A stretch of DNA of 45,202 bases from a virus: positions 1 through 45,202 of the IMG/VR virus record IMGVR_UViG_3300023179_000181. The stretch is one strand, 5' to 3'. The translations under genes and the position numbers were made by a program. Under the pieces are notes generated by a model. The model was given only the letters and a program-made list of their open reading frames with translations, did not search any database and was not told the origin of the DNA. Below are positions 3,085-34,509 of the stretch, one piece after another. The stretch's first letter is position 1. Each line of letters begins with the position of its first letter.

Positions 3085-3855
3085 ATGAAACGTTTTAAAC
3101 ATTCCGGAGCAGGAGGAGACCTGCTATATAGTTTAGCCTTGGTAAAAAGTTTTGGTGGCGGTGAATTTTATCTACACCTTGACCAACTAAACTGGATCGG
3201 GCAACATTATTATGGCAGTCCTCCTGCTCCATATCATCAAAATCGCATGAACGAACAAGATTTTGAATTTTTCAAGGATTTCATGCTGGCTCAACACTAT
3301 ATTACAAAATTTGATATAATGACGCCGCAAACGGAAATTACACACAATCTAGATCGATTTAGACCTTTGTTTGTTGGGCATCCGGCAAATTATGCCAATG
3401 TATATTGTATGGCATTTGGTATTGTTGACAAAGGTACGCAGGACATGATCAGTGGTGATACATGGTTTACGGTACCTTTGCCTGAACCTATTCCTGGTAA
3501 GCCTATGGTAGTTAATCGCACACAGCGAGGATTTAGCCCAGCAGAAGTTAACCCACGATGGCATGAATGGCGCGACAACGAAGGACCCGAGCAAAGTGTG
3601 TTTGTTGGGCTACCCGACGAACACGAATATTTTGAAAAGTGGGCAGGGTGTCGTATTGACTATCGTCCAACAAAGACCTTACTTGAGCTTGCCCAGGTAA
3701 TTGCTGGTGCTCAAGAGTTTGTAGGCAACCAAAGTATGGCTTTAGCATTGGCTCAGGGTCTAGGTGTACCTTATGTATTTGAACGCCGTAGAGACCTACC
3801 CCTAGAGCGCAATGAAAGCTATTTTCCAAATCACCCACAAGGAAATGTATTCTAA
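3085..3855 (+). CDS. Glycosyltransferase-9 / heptosyltransferase-like protein
   Basis: A 256-aa protein with the N-terminal pattern of GT-B enzymes of the heptosyltransferase type (MKRFKHSGAGGDLLYSLALVK, i.e. the Gly-Asp-x-x-x-Ser-Leu loop). Near the C-terminus it has FVGNQSMALALAQGLGVPYV, which matches the donor-side motif where GT9 enzymes recognise a nucleotide sugar. It is shorter than bacterial WaaC/WaaF (about 320-350 aa). The next gene overlaps it by one base (TAATG) and has a similar N-terminus, so the two probably act together on a surface glycan. Donor and acceptor cannot be read from the sequence. No ribosome site precedes the ATG; a late core sits 7 nt upstream. Confidence 0.65.
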   Translation: MKRFKHSGAGGDLLYSLALVKSFGGGEFYLHLDQLNWIGQHYYGSPPAPYHQNRMNEQDFEFFKDFMLAQHYITKFDIMTPQTEITHNLDRFRPLFVGHPANYANVYCMAFGIVDKGTQDMISGDTWFTVPLPEPIPGKPMVVNRTQRGFSPAEVNPRWHEWRDNEGPEQSVFVGLPDEHEYFEKWAGCRIDYRPTKTLLELAQVIAGAQEFVGNQSMALALAQGLGVPYVFERRRDLPLERNESYFPNHPQGNVF

Positions 3856-4568
3856 TGTCTAAAAAGCTAGGTATTATTCAAAGTAGAGGGCTAGGCGATC
3901 TAGTAATTGCTCTACCCATAGCCCGCTGGTATCAAGAAAAAGAAGGGTATGATGAAATTATATGGCCCGTCTGTGAAGAATTTATCTCGCACATGCAGCC
4001 CGTAGCACCCTGGGTAAAGTGGGTTCCGGTTACCACAGACCGTGGCAGCTTTTTCTACGATCAACCTTTACAGCGTCTACGGAACTTTCGGGTAGATGAT
4101 GTACTTTGTTTATATCAGGCCCTGACCGGACATCGGTTTCATGAAGAAAAATGGTTCCAGCATACCAGCTTTGATCAGTACAAATATATACAGGCCGGTG
4201 TACCCTTTTTAGAAAAGTGGAACCTAGCTCAGTGTATCACACGCAACCCCGAGCGTGAGCAGGACCTATACGATCGAGTGGTCAAGAACCCTAACTATGT
4301 TGTAGTACACCTTGAGGGCAGTGACCATCGAGCCACCTGGGATGATGACATGGTACCTGAAGATTGGCAGACCATATACATTACCCCCGAGTCTGACTGT
4401 ATCTGGGATTGGCTTAAGGTCTTAGAAGGTGCCCAAAGCATTGTCTGTGTAGATAGTGTGTTTGCCAACATTGTAGACCAGCTAGGTATTGGTACGGACC
4501 GCTATTTTATCAGCCGTAGCCACATAGGACTAACTCCAGTACAGGGTCAGCATTGGCAGTGGCTATAA
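3855..4568 (+). CDS. Second GT9 / heptosyltransferase-like protein
   Basis: A 237-aa protein starting inside the TAATG overlap with the preceding gene, so translation is probably coupled. Residues 5-25 (GIIQSRGLGDLVIALPIARW) are the classic N-terminal loop of ADP-heptose:LPS heptosyltransferases. The C-terminal part has VVVHLEGSDHRATW and AQSIVCVDSVFANIVDQLG, corresponding to GT9 donor-binding segments (here CVDS in place of the usual G-D-[TS]-G). The stop overlaps the stop of the convergent minus-strand operon by 6 bp. Function as a glycosyltransferase is inferred from the fold; its substrate is unknown. Confidence 0.65.
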   Translation: MSKKLGIIQSRGLGDLVIALPIARWYQEKEGYDEIIWPVCEEFISHMQPVAPWVKWVPVTTDRGSFFYDQPLQRLRNFRVDDVLCLYQALTGHRFHEEKWFQHTSFDQYKYIQAGVPFLEKWNLAQCITRNPEREQDLYDRVVKNPNYVVVHLEGSDHRATWDDDMVPEDWQTIYITPESDCIWDWLKVLEGAQSIVCVDSVFANIVDQLGIGTDRYFISRSHIGLTPVQGQHWQWL

Positions 4569-4832
4569 GTTGCGCGGAGCTACCTGAAAAGGTTGAGTAG
4601 AAAATTCTGGACTAGGGAAACGTAGTAAAAATTCCACAAACCTGCGATCCGTGATACGCCATAGAGTACCATAGCCCACGCTGGTTATACAATGACCTTC
4701 ATTGTTCTTCATCCATTCATTGATATCCGAGTCGTGACAATCAAGGACCCAATAATGCGTTTCTTCCGCAAAGTCGTACTCTTTCTGGAACACATACCAA
4801 CTGACATCTGGTTCGGCTTCTACTCTAGACAT
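4563..4832 (-). CDS. Small protein, paralogue of its upstream neighbour; function unknown
   Basis: An 89-aa acidic, aromatic-rich protein and the last gene of the minus operon. Its start overlaps the preceding gene by 13 bp. Its C-terminal half (DRRFVEFLLRFPSPEF) resembles the end of the neighbour (ERSALMFLLRYPEYAS), and both have a Trp-Tyr followed by a Ser/Asp-rich turn, so the two look like diverged tandem duplicates. I do not recognise the family. Confidence 0.6.
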   Translation of the reverse strand: MSRVEAEPDVSWYVFQKEYDFAEETHYWVLDCHDSDINEWMKNNEGHCITSVGYGTLWRITDRRFVEFLLRFPSPEFSTQPFQVAPRNL

Positions 4833-5038
4833 TCGGGCATCCTATGTGGGCTGGCATATTCCGGGTAACGCAACAAAAACATCAAGGCCGACCGTTCACT
4901 GTCAAAATCAATATACCAGCTTTCTTGGTTTGTAGCCCATAACTCCAGTTGAGGATCTGTGGCAGACCAGTATCTGACCATGCCCGGTACTTGGTCAATA
5001 TCACAGGGAAGATCGTTACAATTAAAATAGACTAACAT
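4820..5038 (-). CDS. Small protein, paralogue of the following gene; function unknown
   Basis: The start is placed at the ATG at 5038 (MLVYFNCNDLPCD), which overlaps the TAA of the sulfotransferase-like gene as TAATG. An in-frame ATG at 5074 would lie inside that gene. The product has 72 aa, with the same C-terminal FLLRYP motif as the gene downstream. No known domain is visible. Linkage to sulfotransferase-like genes suggests an accessory role in that pathway, but this is guesswork. Confidence 0.6.
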   Translation of the reverse strand: MLVYFNCNDLPCDIDQVPGMVRYWSATDPQLELWATNQESWYIDFDSERSALMFLLRYPEYASPHRMPECLE

Positions 5039-5850
5039 TACTTTTCCAAAAAATCTGTTAATCGTTTGTTCCACGATTCTATAATAGATCTGATCTCGTC
5101 GGCATTTTCCATATATTCATAAGGATCGCGTTCAAGAGTTTTAACAGGATCTTTCATATCCTGTAGTTGATGCCCTAAAGCCTGCCCTAGATCCGCTAGC
5201 ATGTATTCGTAACGAACTGGGTGCCAATTACCAGCACCTACTAGACTATCCATATAGGCTGTCCACCTTAGATTAATCATGAACTGTAGAGCACATTTCA
5301 TATTCAAGTTTAGCTTTTCAGCATTAACATAATATTTCTTAGCTTCAAGTCTGCTACCTATTGGCCAAATATTATTATTATAGTCTTGTGTAGCGGTGTC
5401 GGCCATTATATTACTTAAAACTGTGTCTGTAAAGTTTCTTGTTAGCCCGATAAACCGATAGCCTATATTTCCCAAGTATTGGCAGACTTCCAGTTCTAAA
5501 TTACGATATCTATAGGGCCTAACAAACAGTTTTACCAGCTGCCCTTGTTGAGGATTAGCCTGAGCCAGCATGTCTAGCCGAGCTCGGTAGTCAGGGTGTA
5601 GATATCTGCTGTGTCTATGTGTGTTATGCTTGTCTCGAAATTGATCAAATTTAATCTCAGCATCGTGCCGGATATAACCGTCCTTGTCTAGGTAAAATTG
5701 ACCGAAAAAATCTGCGTAGGGCTCAAAGAACTCAATTAAATTTCGTACTGGGCGTTCCGGCCGTGCTGCCAGTAGATTTTCACGCAAGACACGCATACAC
5801 CATTGACTACCCGTTCTAGGTGTAGCCAGCACACACCAACGATCATGCAT
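5038..5850 (-). CDS. Sulfotransferase-like protein (intact PAPS P-loop)
   Basis: A 270-aa protein. Residues 6-22 (CVLATPRTGSQWCMRVL) match the 5'-phosphosulfate-binding loop of PAPS-dependent sulfotransferases ([ST]xPR[ST]GS[ST]). A second block at about residues 105-140 (LVKLFVRPYRYRN... then RFIGLTRN) fits the strand and 3'-phosphate-binding region (R...S-like) of the fold. The family transfers sulfate from PAPS to hydroxyl or amino groups of glycans and small molecules. It overlaps the upstream paralogue by 8 bp and shares an operon with an APS-kinase-like gene, which supports a sulfation role. The acceptor is unknown. Confidence 0.7.
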   Translation of the reverse strand: MHDRWCVLATPRTGSQWCMRVLRENLLAARPERPVRNLIEFFEPYADFFGQFYLDKDGYIRHDAEIKFDQFRDKHNTHRHSRYLHPDYRARLDMLAQANPQQGQLVKLFVRPYRYRNLELEVCQYLGNIGYRFIGLTRNFTDTVLSNIMADTATQDYNNNIWPIGSRLEAKKYYVNAEKLNLNMKCALQFMINLRWTAYMDSLVGAGNWHPVRYEYMLADLGQALGHQLQDMKDPVKTLERDPYEYMENADEIRSIIESWNKRLTDFLEK

Positions 5851-6598
5851 TTTCTAACCCATGTTGTACCAGCAGGTCGTTGTAGGGCCGAACCACCGCT
5901 TCAACGTCGCTGAAATTTTCAATAAGTTTACTGTGGTCTAAGGGCACGGGTTCGGGGTGGGTCTCAAGGTAGTCAACGAGTCTCTGATACCCAGGGTGAT
6001 CCCGGAACCAGTGGGCAAAATCACTGCGCCAAGCTGCCTGGGAAGTCTGCCCAATTTCTCGACCGCGCAAATGACGCTGTATATGATCCTGCCACATCAC
6101 TGTGGTTAAAAAACAGCCCGATGCCAGCCATTCAGTGTTGATCTGGGCAGGGTCAACGGCAAGCACCCTAGGTTCGACCGGCTCTAGGTACCTATGACCG
6201 TGACCCTGTTTGAACATGGCTATAGACCATATAAGGTCCAGCATGGCCGGGTAGTAGGGTCCGGCTAGAACCAAGAATTTAAAACCCTGGCTGTCTAATG
6301 CTGCAAATACTTCAGCTGACACACGATCTCGCCTAATGGGTCTATAGCGCAGGGTCACGATCATGTTGGCCGCAGGCGCCCGGGCAAGAGCCTGTAACCT
6401 GGCCTCAATATCCTGGGCCCAGTGCTCGGTATAAACACCCGAAGCGGCCACGTCCGGGTCAGAGCCGAGATTGGTAGGCTCATAAAATTCAGTGAGGTCG
6501 CCTGCCCGCCAGGCATCGGGCACCAACGCTGCCAGGGCCCCCTCCTGAAGCTGGGTGTCTAGACCCTGCCTGGTAACAATGCAGTATCGCTGAGTCAT
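5843..6598 (-). CDS. Degenerate sulfotransferase paralogue lacking the P-loop
   Basis: A 251-aa protein that aligns along its length with the next gene: YCIVTRQG against WCVLATPR at the N-terminus, DLTEFYEP against NLIEFFEP, and MIVTLRYRPIRRDR against LVKLFVRPYRYRN. The PAPS-binding loop is not conserved (TRQGLDTQ replaces TPRTGSQW), so it probably cannot bind PAPS in the usual way. It may be a regulatory or scaffold partner of the intact enzyme, or may bind another ligand. GC content is distinctly higher than in the replication block. The start at 6598 lies 8 nt after the stop of the kinase fusion gene. Confidence 0.6.
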   Translation of the reverse strand: MTQRYCIVTRQGLDTQLQEGALAALVPDAWRAGDLTEFYEPTNLGSDPDVAASGVYTEHWAQDIEARLQALARAPAANMIVTLRYRPIRRDRVSAEVFAALDSQGFKFLVLAGPYYPAMLDLIWSIAMFKQGHGHRYLEPVEPRVLAVDPAQINTEWLASGCFLTTVMWQDHIQRHLRGREIGQTSQAAWRSDFAHWFRDHPGYQRLVDYLETHPEPVPLDHSKLIENFSDVEAVVRPYNDLLVQHGLENA

Positions 6599-6606
6599 TG
6601 AGCGCC

Positions 6607-7452
6607 CTACGCCAAGCCCATGGCACGCCGTATGGCTGTACCCGAAATACTCTGGGTTTCATCGTCTAGAACTTCCTGCTCAATGGTATAGCCCACCGCA
6701 CGACCATAGGTAATGTTGACAATATTGGGCACCAGTCTGACTTCATACTGACCCTGATATAAGGGATCTAGATCACGTTCAATACGGGCCCGAATCTCGT
6801 CAAAGTTAAAGGGATTTGTGCCCTGCCAGCCTTGACAATCTCTGACCATAACTGAAACCTGCCCGGTTTTCACTATGGCACGCTCAAACAAGGCCCTATG
6901 ACCAGCATGCCAAGGTTGCCAGCGACCCAACATCTGCACAGTTTCGCGACGTGGATCAAACCGAGGTCTACGGCGTCCCTCTAGTATATGTTCCCCGACA
7001 AATTCAGCCCACCTTTCCGCGTTTTGTTCTGTGATCCTAAAATCATAGACCTCGGGTGGTACAAATGCCCGATTGGTGTCCTCATAACGACCCTGATCTA
7101 TGGTATCCATCCAGATGGTCCAATCTGCCTTAAAGTTATTACGCATTTCAACTAATGGTGCTACAAAATCGCAGATTACATAATCAGTTTGTGCAGCTAA
7201 GGCAAACTCAAACATCCGTATGCTTTGACGTATTCTTCCTTCTTTACTAAAGTCCCAATCATTAAATTTTCTACGAACATCATCGGCGTTAAACCAAGTT
7301 ACTGTGGGTCTTAAATTAGGAAAAGGTTTATCTGAATCAATAGTTCCTAAAGATTTTTCTCCATATATCTCTAAATATTTTTTTAATCTTTCTGCAAAAT
7401 AAGTTTTACCTGAGCCGGGCAGGCCCATGACCAAGATTCTTTGTGTTAGCAT
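6607..7452 (-). CDS. Fusion of APS-kinase-like P-loop kinase and HxGH nucleotidyltransferase domain
   Basis: A 281-aa two-domain protein. Domain 1 (about 1-160) has Walker A GLPGSGKT at 10-17, then FNADDVRRKF...FSKEGRIRQSIR and VICDFVAPLVEMR. This is the order and spacing of adenylylsulfate kinases (CysC: DGDNVR, FSxxDRxENIRR, FISPY). Domain 2 (about 172-281) is a HIGH-superfamily nucleotidyltransferase with GRWQPWHAGH at 176-185 and ISGTAIR at 269-275. The HxGH form is closer to NMN adenylyltransferase or cytidylyltransferase than to classic ATP sulfurylase. The pairing resembles PAPS synthase, or a reversed NadR. RBS AGGAG and a late core (7475-7480) lie upstream. The first 320 bp are AT-rich and the rest GC-rich. 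Confidence 0.7.
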   Translation of the reverse strand: MLTQRILVMGLPGSGKTYFAERLKKYLEIYGEKSLGTIDSDKPFPNLRPTVTWFNADDVRRKFNDWDFSKEGRIRQSIRMFEFALAAQTDYVICDFVAPLVEMRNNFKADWTIWMDTIDQGRYEDTNRAFVPPEVYDFRITEQNAERWAEFVGEHILEGRRRPRFDPRRETVQMLGRWQPWHAGHRALFERAIVKTGQVSVMVRDCQGWQGTNPFNFDEIRARIERDLDPLYQGQYEVRLVPNIVNITYGRAVGYTIEQEVLDDETQSISGTAIRRAMGLA

Positions 7453-7468: not shown

Positions 7469-7738
7469 TTGGCTTATTTACACCCACTACGCGAAGCGCT
7501 AGAAAAAACCGAGCGCACCGGGGTTAGCCTAAAATACAGGAATGATCTGAATGAGCTAAGACAAACTGTAGACCCACAGCAGGCCTCGCAAAAAGTATAA
7601 TCCAACTGGTAATCATGGTACAATCATAGACTGCGCTATAACCAGATTGTTGAGCATGAAATTCAACACCAGGATCCTGATGTCCGAGTTGATCTTGTTC
7701 GTAAACAGCTAGCTCTCGACGGTAAAGTACTCGCATAA
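7469..7738 (+). pseudogene. Decayed reading frame with two in-frame stops
   Basis: One plus-strand frame looks protein-like on both sides of two TAA stops (7598-7600 and 7610-7612). Upstream it reads LREALEKTERTGVSLKYRN...; downstream WYNHRLRYNQIVEHEIQH and then DVRVDLVRKQLALDGKVLA before TAA at 7736-7738. There is no ATG; only a TTG at 7469 with a poor ribosome site. The second half is rich in charged, helix-forming residues typical of coding sequence. I read it as the remains of a small gene. An AT/GC-biased non-coding stretch is the alternative. Confidence 0.35.
7475..7480 (-). promoter_or_regulatory. T4-type late promoter core
   Basis: Minus-strand GTAAATAAG, 22 nt before the ATG of the kinase fusion gene, followed by a TTAGGAGAA ribosome site. 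It would drive the whole sulfotransferase operon (7452 to 4563). Confidence 0.5.
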
Positions 7739-8194: not shown

Positions 8195-8273
<79 letters not shown>

Positions 8274-24490: not shown

Positions 24491-25285
24491 ATGGAACGAC
24501 TATTTTATCTAAGCGGTCTGGTCAGATCTGGTGGCACGGTGCTCGGCAGTATTATCAATCAAAATCCAGATTTTTATGTAAGTCCTACAAGTCCTTTAAT
24601 GGATATCATGATGGGCATAGAATATCATATTGGTATGATGTCCCAACGGTGGACCTTTGATCATAGACAAAAAACTGTAAATTTTCTACAAGATGCTTTT
24701 AGGACCTACTACAAAGATGTAGACAAAAAATACATAATTGACAATCACAAAGGATGGCCTACTAACATTGGTCAAATTAAAAAAGATTTTGACATGGATC
24801 CGCGAGTAATTTGTCTTTATAGACCCTTGCCTGAAATTATTGCCAGCTTTATGGAGTTGATTAAACGAGATCCTAAAAATGCTGTTGATCAAGAATTAAA
24901 GAAAAACAATAAACCGTTGACTGTAAAAAATCGTGCCATGTTAATCTGGGATGTGGCTACAAGACAGACCTGGGAAGCATTTAACAACGGTCTAACACTT
25001 TATCCTCAACACATTCATTTGGTCAAATATGACGACCTATGCGGTAATCCTCAGGAAACCGTTAACGGCATTTATGATTTCCTAGGAGTTCCACATTTTG
25101 CCCACGACTTTGAAAATATAGAAAACACCTTGGCCGAAGACCACGACGAAGTATTAGGTTTTAAAAATTTACATAATATTAGAACTTCACTGAAGAAGAC
25201 CAGTATAGACCCAAAGGAAGTTTTAGGTGAAGAACTGGTTAAATATTTTGAGAAATATGATAAGCTGTTGAGACTGCCAAAATGA
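24491..25285 (+). CDS. Sulfotransferase
   Basis: A 264-aa protein with an intact PAPS loop near the N-terminus (LFYLSGLVRSGGTVLGSIIN, then QNPDFYVSPTSPLMD). A central VICLYRPLPEIIASFMELIK corresponds to the 3'-phosphate-binding strand and helix (R...S). The C-terminal half has HLVKYDDLCGNPQETVNGIY and FLGVPHF, typical of the sulfotransferase family. It is more canonical than the two at 5.0-6.6 kb and not closely related to them. Similar enzymes occur in T4-like cyanophages. It overlaps the next gene as ATGA. Confidence 0.8.
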   Translation: MERLFYLSGLVRSGGTVLGSIINQNPDFYVSPTSPLMDIMMGIEYHIGMMSQRWTFDHRQKTVNFLQDAFRTYYKDVDKKYIIDNHKGWPTNIGQIKKDFDMDPRVICLYRPLPEIIASFMELIKRDPKNAVDQELKKNNKPLTVKNRAMLIWDVATRQTWEAFNNGLTLYPQHIHLVKYDDLCGNPQETVNGIYDFLGVPHFAHDFENIENTLAEDHDEVLGFKNLHNIRTSLKKTSIDPKEVLGEELVKYFEKYDKLLRLPK

Positions 25286-31203: not shown

Positions 31204-31753
31204 TTGATTCACAGATTAAATTCATTTGAACTACAACTACCATAGCGTAAGCTGTAGCGTGACTTTTCTTAAAGAAGTACTCATCACCCTCAGGTTTTAT
31301 CCAAACCTCGTTCATCACCGTAGTCCAATCTTTCCCAATCAGATAGCGTTTCGCGGGGCGAATCATTGCCAAAACTGCCGCTAGTTGGGGTATTGTCCTT
31401 GGTTTCATTTCTCTTAAGATTGAACCATGTCCGTTGACGTGAAATAGTAAGTTGACGAAATCGTCCTGTTCCAAAAGTTCCCATAGCGGTTCGGTCTCCA
31501 TTAATGTTTTGAGATGAGTTTCATCTCGCACATCTTTATATATGCCAACATTTAAAAAATCGATCTTAAAATAGCCTCTGTCTTCGGCTTCTTTGTAGTT
31601 AATGCTGGCAGTACCTGTAAGTGGATTCACAGGAATACTATGACAATAAACTCCAGACTTATGTTTAGTTCCATCCTCTAAAGTCGCAGGAATGTGTTTG
31701 ATAATATCAAGCACTGTGGTCCTATCAGCAAAATCAATATCAATATCCGGCAT
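31184..31753 (-). CDS. Miniature DNA polymerase III alpha (DnaE)-like protein
   Basis: A 189-aa protein that reads as a compressed DnaE palm. MPDIDIDFADR (Asp 3/5/7) matches the PDxDxDFxxxR catalytic motif. HKSGVYCHSIPVNPL aligns with HAAGVVI...PL. GYFKIDFLNVG carries Asp65 at the place of the third catalytic Asp (K-x-DFLGL). LWELLEQDDFVNLLFHVNGH, then LREMKPRTIPQLAAVLAMIR with P, matches the ELL..GDT.G.FQ...L...KP.S...L.AL.RPG block, and FFKKSHATAYAMVVV matches FNKSHAAAYAL. PHP, fingers and beta-binding domains are missing. Similar mini-proteins exist in T4-like marine phages. Overlaps the HldE kinase gene by 14 bp. Confidence 0.75.
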   Translation of the reverse strand: MPDIDIDFADRTTVLDIIKHIPATLEDGTKHKSGVYCHSIPVNPLTGTASINYKEAEDRGYFKIDFLNVGIYKDVRDETHLKTLMETEPLWELLEQDDFVNLLFHVNGHGSILREMKPRTIPQLAAVLAMIRPAKRYLIGKDWTTVMNEVWIKPEGDEYFFKKSHATAYAMVVVVQMNLICESISYEFS

Positions 31754-32525
31754 TTCTTATCTCATCGTAGCTCGGGGCATAACATCCGAGATGTTGTACA
31801 GTTATGCTTGCAGCTGTATTAGCAAACATTATACTTTTTTCTAAATCTTTTGTATATAGATATTGAACAGCAAACGCAGATAAAAATGTATCCCCGGCAC
31901 CGCAGACATCTGCTACTTCAACACTCGGAGCAGGACATTGAATATTGTGATGTGGAATACTGGCTCCTTTAGGTCCTTGTGTAATGATTAATCCAGAACA
32001 CTCGCTGGTAATTAGCCGTGATTCAGATTCGTTTATTTTTACCCAGGCACCTTGGAATAGTTCAAGATTAGTTTTTTTGGTATCTATGAAAATCGGAATT
32101 TTTTCTGCTCCGGCCATTCTTACTATGTCTATAATCATGCTCTCGGTTAACGTACCTTTGTTGTAGTCGCTGATAACCACGGCATGGAAACTATTAAAAT
32201 TTAAATGATTAACAGTAGTAGGTTGACTACGATTGTCGTTATCAATTCTTACGATATGCTGTTTGCTACGAATATCAATCAACCGTGTTTTGACACTGGT
32301 AGCCTCTGATATGTAGGTCACATCGCATCCAAGATTTTCTAAGTTAACTTTAACATTTCTTGCCATGCCGGGGCGTTCTTCTTTATGAGAATATTTGAAC
32401 ACTGGCACAGGTGCTTCGGGACTTATTCTATCAACCGTTCCAAATTGATAGATATCGAGGCAATCATCTCCGATTAATAATATTTTGAATGGTGTTTGTA
32501 GTTGAATAGCTTCCAACTCTGTCAT
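31740..32525 (-). CDS. hldE: Heptose-7-phosphate kinase (HldE N-domain, PfkB family)
   Basis: A 261-aa PfkB/ribokinase-family enzyme. ILLIGDDCLDIYQFGTVDRI and SPEAPVPVFKYSHKEERPGM are the HldE/RfaE1 signature (GD...D.Y..G...RISPEAPVPV...E..PGGA.N). DVCGAGDTFLSAFA is the C-terminal catalytic motif. It would phosphorylate D-glycero-D-manno-heptose 7-phosphate at C1. In bacteria this domain is fused to the adenylyltransferase; here the two are separate genes overlapping by 62 bp, in reversed order. Slightly shorter than the bacterial domain (about 310 aa). Confidence 0.85.
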   Translation of the reverse strand: MTELEAIQLQTPFKILLIGDDCLDIYQFGTVDRISPEAPVPVFKYSHKEERPGMARNVKVNLENLGCDVTYISEATSVKTRLIDIRSKQHIVRIDNDNRSQPTTVNHLNFNSFHAVVISDYNKGTLTESMIIDIVRMAGAEKIPIFIDTKKTNLELFQGAWVKINESESRLITSECSGLIITQGPKGASIPHHNIQCPAPSVEVADVCGAGDTFLSAFAVQYLYTKDLEKSIMFANTAASITVQHLGCYAPSYDEIRNAGY

Positions 32526-32865
32526 AATAAATTACCTTAGAACAATATTTTTCTGCTGTGCTTGCTGCGCCTTTCCAGTCGCTGCCTTTTACATAAACAT
32601 CGGGTTGATATTCTTTCATAATCTCAGCAAGTTCTTCTTTGCTGTCAAATAACATGACGGTGTCAACTGCTCGAAGATTATATAAGAATAATTTTCTATC
32701 TTCTTGATTGTTTATGGGTCTTGACTCGCCTTTAAGTTCTTGTACTCTACGGTCGGTATCAATAGCAACTAATAATTGATCTCCTTGACTCCGAGCAAAA
32801 TTTAAAAGTTCTAAATGACCTCTGTGAAGTATATCAAAGGTGCCATTAACCATTACTCTTACCAC
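32464..32865 (-). CDS. hldE: Heptose-1-phosphate adenylyltransferase (HldE C-domain)
   Basis: A 133-aa cytidylyltransferase-like enzyme. NGTFDILHRGHLELLNFARS holds the HxGH nucleotide-binding motif; VAIDTDRRVQELKGESRPIN and then PDVYVKGSDW match RfaE2 (LKG..RP....R...L, KG.DY). VGSYSTTNTIQNI is the terminal S-T-T..I motif. It would convert heptose-1-phosphate to ADP-heptose. The start overlaps the HldD gene by 7 bp, and its 3' end overlaps the kinase gene by 62 bp. Confidence 0.85.
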   Translation of the reverse strand: MVRVMVNGTFDILHRGHLELLNFARSQGDQLLVAIDTDRRVQELKGESRPINNQEDRKLFLYNLRAVDTVMLFDSKEELAEIMKEYQPDVYVKGSDWKGAASTAEKYCSKVIYYDRVGSYSTTNTIQNIINRR

Positions 32866-33638
32866 GGTATAGTCCTAACTGTTTTAGTCATGTCTGCCTT
32901 AGTATAAGTTTGATATTGATGTTTAAGATTTTCGGGCATTGGGATATATTCAACACGAGCATTATATTTGTCGGCAATCATTCTCGCTACATTTTCAAAA
33001 CTTGTTGCTAGACCGGTACCTACATTGTAAATTCCACTTACAGGAATATCAAAGAATCGCTTATGAATATTAATAACTTCATCAACATGTACAAAGTCTC
33101 TGTAAAAATTTTCACTGCCTTCAAACAATTTAATAATACCCGTTTCTTTGGCTTGTTTTTCAAATTTATGATAAGGGCTAGCTTGATTGCCTTTGTGATC
33201 CTCGTGAGGGCCATAGACATTAAAATATCTAAATCCCTGTACACGAATATTTTCAAAATGTGTCTTGTTAGCTTCTACATGTCGATCAAATAGATACTTG
33301 CTCCAAGCATAAGGAGTTTTTGGGTCAACGGGGCTATCTTCTTTAAATTCTTTGTTTAATCCGTAGACGCTGGCACTGCTAGCATACTGTAAATTTACTT
33401 TGTTAATCTGACAGGCCATGAGCATGATACAGCTAAAGTCATGGTTTTGTTTCATAACTTTTTCTACATCAGTTTCGGTGGTGCTGGTAATAGCACCAAG
33501 GTGAATACACCAATCAAGCCCTTCCACCTCTGGAGGCTCATCACCCCAGTCATAAAAACTTAGTTCATGCTCATCCTTCAAAGCATTGACCATATTTTGA
33601 CCAATAAAACCTTTATAGCCGGTAATTAGTATTTTCAT
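32859..33638 (-). CDS. hldD: ADP-heptose 6-epimerase (HldD), short form
   Basis: A 259-aa extended SDR enzyme. Rossmann motif ILITGYKGFIGQNMV at 3-17, HLGAITSTTETD (the HldD-type GA.S.TTE.D), SSASVYG, and catalytic YAWSKYLFD (YxxxK). GFRYFNVYGPHEDHKGNQAS and FYRDFVHVDEV match HldD. It would epimerise ADP-D-glycero to ADP-L-glycero-D-manno-heptose, the LPS core precursor. It is about 50 residues shorter than E. coli HldD and ends soon after YQTYTKADM, so the last helices are missing. Confidence 0.85.
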   Translation of the reverse strand: MKILITGYKGFIGQNMVNALKDEHELSFYDWGDEPPEVEGLDWCIHLGAITSTTETDVEKVMKQNHDFSCIMLMACQINKVNLQYASSASVYGLNKEFKEDSPVDPKTPYAWSKYLFDRHVEANKTHFENIRVQGFRYFNVYGPHEDHKGNQASPYHKFEKQAKETGIIKLFEGSENFYRDFVHVDEVINIHKRFFDIPVSGIYNVGTGLATSFENVARMIADKYNARVEYIPMPENLKHQYQTYTKADMTKTVRTIPW

Positions 33639-33994
33639 TTTTGACTATCACCTTTACCAACACGATAGTTGTCTTCTACGCTGTCTGGAGTGCTAACTTC
33701 AATAATTGTTCCGGCCTCTAGACATTCAATTTGATGTGGCTGACAGGGAGGATTGTGCCATACTGCGCCATCAATTACCTCTTTTTCATGGACCTCTGCG
33801 GTATTTGTATCAATCCAACGGATGATAAATTTACCCGACTGTACATACCAAGTTTCTTCTTTATCTTTGTGGAAGTGCATGCTGAACTTTTTACCTTTTT
33901 CAAAGTTCATAAACTTTCCACAATATTTGTCGTTGGTTGCCCAAATAAATTCTGAGCCCCACCCTTTAGGCACCAATCCTTTTAACTGTGTCAT
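33635..33994 (-). CDS. Cupin, mannose-6-phosphate isomerase-like
   Basis: A 119-aa protein, MTQLKGLVPKGWGSEFIWAT..., starting in the TAATG overlap at 33994. KKFSMHFHKDKEETWYVQSG and then HNPPCQPHQIECLEAG are the two cupin motifs (HxHxxxxE and PxxxxH). K-G-W-G-x-E at the start resembles the C-terminal domain of type II phosphomannose isomerase. It probably acts on a sugar phosphate or nucleotide sugar in the same pathway as the heptose genes. The 3' end overlaps hldD by 4 bp. Confidence 0.75.
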   Translation of the reverse strand: MTQLKGLVPKGWGSEFIWATNDKYCGKFMNFEKGKKFSMHFHKDKEETWYVQSGKFIIRWIDTNTAEVHEKEVIDGAVWHNPPCQPHQIECLEAGTIIEVSTPDSVEDNYRVGKGDSQK

Positions 33995-34509
33995 TATTGT
34001 TTCCACCATTCTTCCCATGGAAATACAAACCATGATTCATCTTCTAGTCGATTGAAGTTATGCGAACTAAAATCAACATTTTGAAATTCACTGTTTTCGT
34101 TATTTAAAAGTGTAGCAAATCGTACATTGTTATTCCAGATATCTTGCCATTTAGAATCGTTAGGCAAACATGATGACTGCCAATCTTTTACTAACCAATT
34201 TAGCGTGGCTCCGGAGTCATTAATATTATCAACTACTAGTATGTTTACCGGACTTTCGCTATCATAGCCAAAGGCATCTTCGGACATCCAACAATTTGTT
34301 TCGCAGTCATTTTCGTCGCCGTGCCTAAGACTAATTTTAACCGTATGCATAGGCACATCAAAATAATGACTTAACATTAACGCAGGAACTAGACCCCCTC
34401 GTGTAATTCCTACAATGTAGTCAGGTCTAAAATCTGTAGAGGCTATCTGTCTACAGATATCATTGACCATATGTTTGATGTTTCGGTTTGTTAAAATTTT
34501 ATAATTCAT
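33994..34509 (-). CDS. Phosphoribosyltransferase
   Basis: A 171-aa type I PRTase. PDYIVGITRGGLVPALMLSH is the PPi-loop strand (IVGIxRGG), and NILVVDNINDSGATLNWLV is the PRPP-binding motif (VVDDI.DTG.T). The layout resembles xanthine-guanine (Gpt) or related purine PRTases, which salvage bases into nucleotides. It overlaps neighbours at both ends (TAATG and ATGA). Confidence 0.8.
   Translation of the reverse strand: MNYKILTNRNIKHMVNDICRQIASTDFRPDYIVGITRGGLVPALMLSHYFDVPMHTVKISLRHGDENDCETNCWMSEDAFGYDSESPVNILVVDNINDSGATLNWLVKDWQSSCLPNDSKWQDIWNNNVRFATLLNNENSEFQNVDFSSHNFNRLEDESWFVFPWEEWWKQ

Follow-up and report, generated by a model that had tools for sequence, protein, structure and literature searches.

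The analysed window, a viral contig of 45.2 kb, is judged from its sequence to be probably a fragment of a jumbo (giant) phage; its UvsX was 63-68% identical to the UvsX of Agrobacterium phage Atu_ph07, Sinorhizobium phage Phosso, XbC2 and CBB. The locus under study consists of five closely spaced ORFs on the minus strand (7452-6607, 6598-5843, 5850-5038, 5074-4820 and 4832-4563), as in the single minus-strand unit (4563-7452) of a previous sequence-only reading. The features of the unit, and a second sulfotransferase gene located elsewhere in the window, are listed below.

6607..7452, minus strand: fusion enzyme; N-terminal APS-kinase-family domain (approximately residues 1-155) and C-terminal short NadM-like HxGH adenylyltransferase domain (approximately residues 168-281)
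5843..6598, minus strand: loop-less paralogue of the 5038-5850 product, by alignment; no family match
5038..5850, minus strand: divergent sulfotransferase-like protein; sub-cut-off Sulfotransfer_3 match, loop ATPRTGS, possible 3'-phosphate motif RNFTDTVLS
4820..5074, minus strand: small ORF in the same unit as the fusion; marginal likeness to 4563-4832
4563..4832, minus strand: small ORF in the same unit as the fusion; marginal likeness to 4820-5074
24491..25285, plus strand: second sulfotransferase (Sulfotransfer_3), matched by PF13469, PF00685, PHROG_27463 and by tblastn to S-SRM01

The similarity of the two small proteins, previously described as paralogues, was marginal only (z = 3.0; 9 of 500 shuffles reached the score). 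The late promoter and late expression proposed for the unit were not borne out. The sole candidate, TGTAAATA at 7475-7482 on the minus strand, is one mismatch away from TATAAATA, and one-mismatch matches to this motif occurred in the window at chance frequency (68 observed versus 66 expected). A tRNA-Met gene (8195-8273) is encoded on the plus strand, opposite to the operon and upstream of it. Two plus-strand ORFs (3085-4568) converge on the operon; their GDL motifs recall GT9 heptosyltransferases by eye, and the Pfam and NCBIfam scan of these ORFs gave no support for such a reading.

Both domains read from the 6607-7452 gene, an APS-kinase-like domain and an HxGH nucleotidyltransferase, were found fused and intact. 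The protein matched PHROG_10255 (5e-46), and its residues 6-108 matched Pfam APS_kinase (PF01583) over the cut-off of this family (E = 4e-5). The kinase half matched APS kinases in profile comparison against PDB and by curated families, at scores below the NCBIfam cut-offs, and among APS-kinase subfamilies PRK05541 scored best with the kinases of the phage, SAR11 and SAR86. The top 18 Foldseek matches of this half were all APS kinases. In M. tuberculosis CysC, the side chains touching APS outside the lid are K456, D480, R483, F492 and R497 (PMC4373884). Motif alignment identified K16, D57, R60, F68 and R73 of the fusion as their respective counterparts, and these were invariant or nearly so across 25-28 diverse family sequences; the residues kept outside the lid are thus the phosphosulfate-, ribose- and adenine-contacting positions. 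The APS-kinase lid residues R559, K562 and F576 were not kept, and the corresponding region of the family is shorter and reads GRxxDTNxxF. Rather than matching NAD or sugar-nucleotide enzymes without APS-binding residues, the outcome that had been named as contradicting the sequence-only reading, this half keeps the APS-contacting residues, and its profile and fold matches are APS kinases. Sequence profiles and the structural model place the kinase half in the APS-kinase family.

The HxGH domain starts at approximately residue 170 of the fusion and gave weak matches to NMNATs of the NadM/NatV type. The nearest sequence relatives of this half were NMN adenylyltransferases, to which it looks closer than to ATP sulfurylase. 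Its length is approximately 115-124 residues versus 165-181 in NadM chains and, as read from the alignment, it appears to be a short NadM-like domain without the segment carrying the NMN contacts. The NMNAT equivalog cut-offs were not reached (TIGR01527 scored at most 28 bits in relatives against a cut-off of 181), and the NadR equivalog TIGR01526 gave no match for the window protein and marginal matches, far under the cut-off, in relatives. The ATP sulfurylase profile PF01747 gave no match for the window protein and a marginal one in three of the 16 separate homologues (best 0.0034). The Sat motifs QxRN and GRDHAG were absent from the fusion, which reads LGRWQPWH and YGR(D/G/A)VGY, with GR alone in common; the Sat of a Rhodospirillales genome that also has the fusion reads FQTRNPMH and GRDHAG. 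By profile and motif, the adenylyltransferase half is not a recognised ATP sulfurylase. Foldseek searches with a model of a separate adenylyltransferase returned weak and mixed matches (NMNAT, PPAT and pantothenate synthetase, none with E < 1e-3), so the substrate of this half could not be read from the fold.

The 5038-5850 product was matched nearly end to end (residues 7-221) by Sulfotransfer_3 (E = 8.8e-4), at a score of 20 bits that lies below the curated cut-off of 27. The loop ATPRTGS (5' PAPS loop) and the distal RNFTDTVLS were seen directly. The intact PAPS loop reported for this protein is present and its family match is sub-cut-off, which makes its placement among sulfotransferases probable, yet unproved. 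No relatives of it were found among isolate phages, no sequence match in PDB, and a local profile-profile comparison with the sulfotransferases of phages and SAR86 was uninformative. The 5843-6598 product is, as proposed, its paralogue with a ruined loop: the alignment score reached z = 8.4 at 24% identity, none of the 500 shuffles scored as high, and the PAPS loop is missing. This protein had no Pfam or PHROG match, and relatives of neither protein were found in IMG/VR. The 24491-25285 sulfotransferase scored above the Pfam cut-off (PF13469, 1.3e-12, 48.9 bits; PF00685, 3.2e-8, 33.7 bits), matched PHROG_27463 (2e-55) and has cyanophage relatives, e.g., S-SRM01 (37% by tblastn). It is a clear member of a PAPS-dependent family, which runs counter to a placement of the transferases outside such families; the earlier term "canonical" is slightly too strong, because its loop reads GLVRSGGT.

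Relatives of the fusion were confirmed in at least 272 viral contigs (the best 80 at approximately 70% identity) and in five isolate phages (34-40% identity). Bacterial relatives lie on chromosomes of SAR11, SAR86 and Rhodospirillales. The first two groups mostly encode the halves as distinct genes that abut or overlap, and the fused form was present in seven other loci, four of SAR11 (L085-L088) and three of Alphaproteobacteria (L089-L091). In the tree, the window protein fell within a fully supported clade of viral contigs, the nearest bacterial relatives were the SAR86 pairs, and the isolate-phage versions branched apart on long branches. The family is widespread and unnamed. No description of the enzyme was found in the open-access literature, which is weak evidence of novelty because that coverage is partial.

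Of 80 viral loci, 47 had a gene of the sulfotransferase cluster near the fusion, a count that includes some glycosyltransferase members without the transferase, and in some loci that gene was fused to a TPR and a glycosyltransferase-like part. A sulfotransferase-specific profile matched at 46 of the 80 loci. Since such islands might always carry sulfotransferases, T4-like control loci were gathered by their neck gene; the specific profile matched 1 of 49 loci without the fusion versus 3 of 4 with it (Fisher 7e-4). Because most of the sequences behind this profile came from fusion loci, the test was repeated on whole records with Pfam Sulfotransfer_3, which was found in 11 of 25 viral records with the fusion (being missing from the other 14) versus 2 of 25 controls (p = 0.008). 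In the Casjensviridae Stenotrophomonas phage Bhz60 (L084:5978-7741), the gene order is Sulfotransfer_4, NADAR, fusion, and the Sulfotransfer_4 match two genes upstream of the fusion was above the cut-off; the existing annotation calls these two neighbours hypothetical and riboflavin biosynthesis, respectively. No sulfotransferase was seen near the fusion relative of phage DLP6 (L083, 6471-8729), which adjoins a 2OG-Fe(II) oxygenase and a calcineurin-like phosphatase. Fusions of sulfotransferase, TPR and glycosyltransferase-like parts near tail-fibre-like genes were noted at L010, L023, L034, L037 and other loci. Neighbour clusters 78 and 48, which resembled sulfotransferases by eye in some phages, were rejected, with no support from Pfam and at best weak support from profiles.

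In SAR86, a sulfotransferase gene adjoined the kinase/adenylyltransferase pair in eight sampled genomes and at locus L102, where it ends 15 nt before the kinase gene. Among 71 genomes of the SAR86 order, 37 had both the pair (scored by its adenylyltransferase gene) and Sulfotransfer_3, 30 had neither, two had the pair only and two the transferase only (p = 2e-15); these are raw genome counts, uncorrected for shared ancestry, and the genomes with neither tend to be smaller. Classical ATP sulfurylase was found in 1 of the 71. Neither ATP sulfurylase nor CysD was detected in any of 31 SAR11/SAR86-type genomes with the pair, and the Rhodospirillales holding the fusion also have the classical route.

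At one SAR11 locus (L117), the last 4 nt of the adenylyltransferase gene are shared with a sulfotransferase gene. Across 68 SAR11 genomes, however, the pair was not associated with Sulfotransfer_3 (36 of 51 with the pair versus 12 of 17 without), and the association was still absent when CysNC was counted as an alternative route, which weakens a simple one-to-one relation between pair and sulfotransferase. The 12 SAR11 genomes with a sulfotransferase and no pair comprised five with a CysNC-sized APS kinase, three with a short APS-kinase relative and four in which neither was found. A CysNC-sized APS kinase was present in 6 of the 17 genomes without the pair; the contrast between CysD in 0 of 22 genomes with the pair and CysNC in these 6 of 17 (p = 0.004) draws on samples that differ in completeness and query. 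By eye, the split pair of SAR11 (L092-L164) usually lies amid genes resembling those of betaine, sarcosine and one-carbon catabolism, together with enoyl-CoA hydratase. The short APS-kinase relatives (L193, L194 and L197 in G157, G154 and G140) are 164-174 aa long; two of them adjoin methyltransferase-like genes, where another 3'-phosphonucleotide pathway is possible.

We consider that the fusion is probably a PAPS synthase with a NadM-like ATP-sulfurylase half, whose PAPS is used by sulfotransferases. The observed basis for this reading consists of the domain identities, the APS-contacting residues, the recurrent sulfotransferase neighbourhood and the co-occurrence in SAR86, where ATP sulfurylase is almost absent. 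In the C-terminal NadM-like HxGH domain, the AMP moiety of ATP would be transferred to sulfate, giving APS, and the N-terminal CysC-like domain would phosphorylate the 3'-OH of APS with ATP, giving PAPS and pulling the unfavourable first step. Sulfotransferases encoded next to the fusion or at other genomic sites would consume the PAPS; in the window, these would be the 5038-5850 and 24491-25285 products. The acceptor would probably be a glycan and, we infer, the phage may sulfate a virion or envelope glycan. An ADP-heptose-synthesis-like set is located at 31743-33638 on the minus strand, with an HldE kinase-like (TIGR02198, 7e-52), an HldE adenylyltransferase-like (TIGR02199, 3e-33) and an HldD-like (TIGR02197, 9e-72) match, all under the equivalog cut-offs, and a cupin lies beside it (33638-34033); since the phage encodes this set, a heptose-containing glycan may be one candidate acceptor. 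The previously noted observations were mostly real, and their interpretation is supported in part: as a genomic association, the joint presence of supply and transfer genes in a cassette has good support, with sulfotransferases recurring beside the fusion in T4-like phages, Casjensviridae, SAR86 and SAR11. Animal PAPS synthases have the same domain order as the fusion. The likeness to PAPSS (PF01583 and PF01747) includes an N-terminal APS-kinase-family domain followed by an HxGH-superfamily adenylyltransferase, and a link to sulfotransferases; unlike in PAPSS, the second domain of the fusion is of approximately 115 residues and NadM-like, not PF01747. The CysNC/CysD complex of some SAR11 without the pair would give the same product, in contrast through a GTPase-coupled adenylyltransferase unrelated to that of the fusion.

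It is unlikely, yet a more serious rival than NAD salvage, that the fusion makes another 3'-phosphorylated nucleotide donor (3'-phospho-CDP- or ADP-X, with Campylobacter O-methyl phosphoramidate as the precedent), the X being moved by sulfotransferase-fold enzymes. Campylobacter Cj1415, a relative of APS kinases, adds a 3'-phosphate to a nucleotide donor used in glycan decoration, and the cytidine diphosphoramidate route of this organism uses separate genes and a cytidylyltransferase of another fold. Such a donor would fit PRK05541 as the best kinase subfamily, which may include non-APS kinases, an adenylyltransferase unlike the known ATP sulfurylases and the differing kinase lid. The existence of a cytidine diphosphoramidate kinase in C. 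jejuni, through a paper cited in PMC6429109, points the same way. On the other hand, no recurrent neighbour of the pair was seen that would supply a special X, and some pair-less SAR11 with sulfotransferases have CysNC, a PAPS maker. The C-terminal ISxTxIR motif and the NadM relationship of the fusion, moreover, are taken by us to favour ATP over CTP.

The NADAR gene directly upstream of the Casjensviridae fusion and the NadM-like half led us to consider NAD salvage seriously, with the fusion as a reversed NadR (nicotinamide riboside kinase and NMN adenylyltransferase) restoring NAD during infection. The NadR known from phages likewise joins a HIGH adenylyltransferase and a P-loop kinase in one protein (PMC9503650, PMC7824862), and the fusion also has NadM-type sequence motifs and the matches to NadM/NatV. 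This explanation was then downgraded, and we find it rather improbable: the kinase groups with APS kinases and not with NadR, the domain order is reversed, the shortened adenylyltransferase appears from the alignment to have lost the NMN-contact segment, no NadV turned up in those window genes that were scanned, and a SAR11 genome with the pair (G103) has NadD-like and CoaD-like genes of its own. Help to host sulfate assimilation, in which an extra APS kinase would feed PAPS reductase for cysteine, is very improbable; freshwater phages with genes annotated cysC are common, large and transcribed, and were read as assimilatory (PMC10914622), but the recurrent neighbour of the fusion is a sulfotransferase, and an unsystematic look revealed no PAPS reductase. 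SAR11 are reported to need reduced sulfur, and they keep the pair. That the fusion is unrelated to the sulfotransferases and merely shares variable glycan and tail-fibre islands with them is the least probable account, since sulfotransferases are rare in that T4-like island when the fusion is missing, and since unrelated hosts show the adjacency again with sulfotransferases of other families, despite the lack of association in SAR11 and the betaine- and one-carbon-catabolism-like flanks of most SAR11 loci.

If the fusion is a PAPS synthase, sulfate activation might have a third enzyme type, in which an ATP sulfurylase derived from NadM is coupled to an APS kinase, as one protein in phages and as two in SAR11 and SAR86. 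We propose tentatively that these abundant ocean bacteria have no other PAPS source for sulfation, and that large freshwater phages carry the enzyme to modify glycans of their own or of the host with sulfate. According to PMC10580990, the role of phage sulfotransferases is unclear. Phage cysC genes are at present interpreted as helpers of cysteine assimilation (PMC10914622). If the family makes PAPS, at least part of the phage cysC signal may reflect sulfation instead. The same enzyme may be the only source of activated sulfate in SAR86 and many SAR11, among the commonest bacteria of the ocean, and some of these lineages would gain sulfate activation where no classical route was found here.
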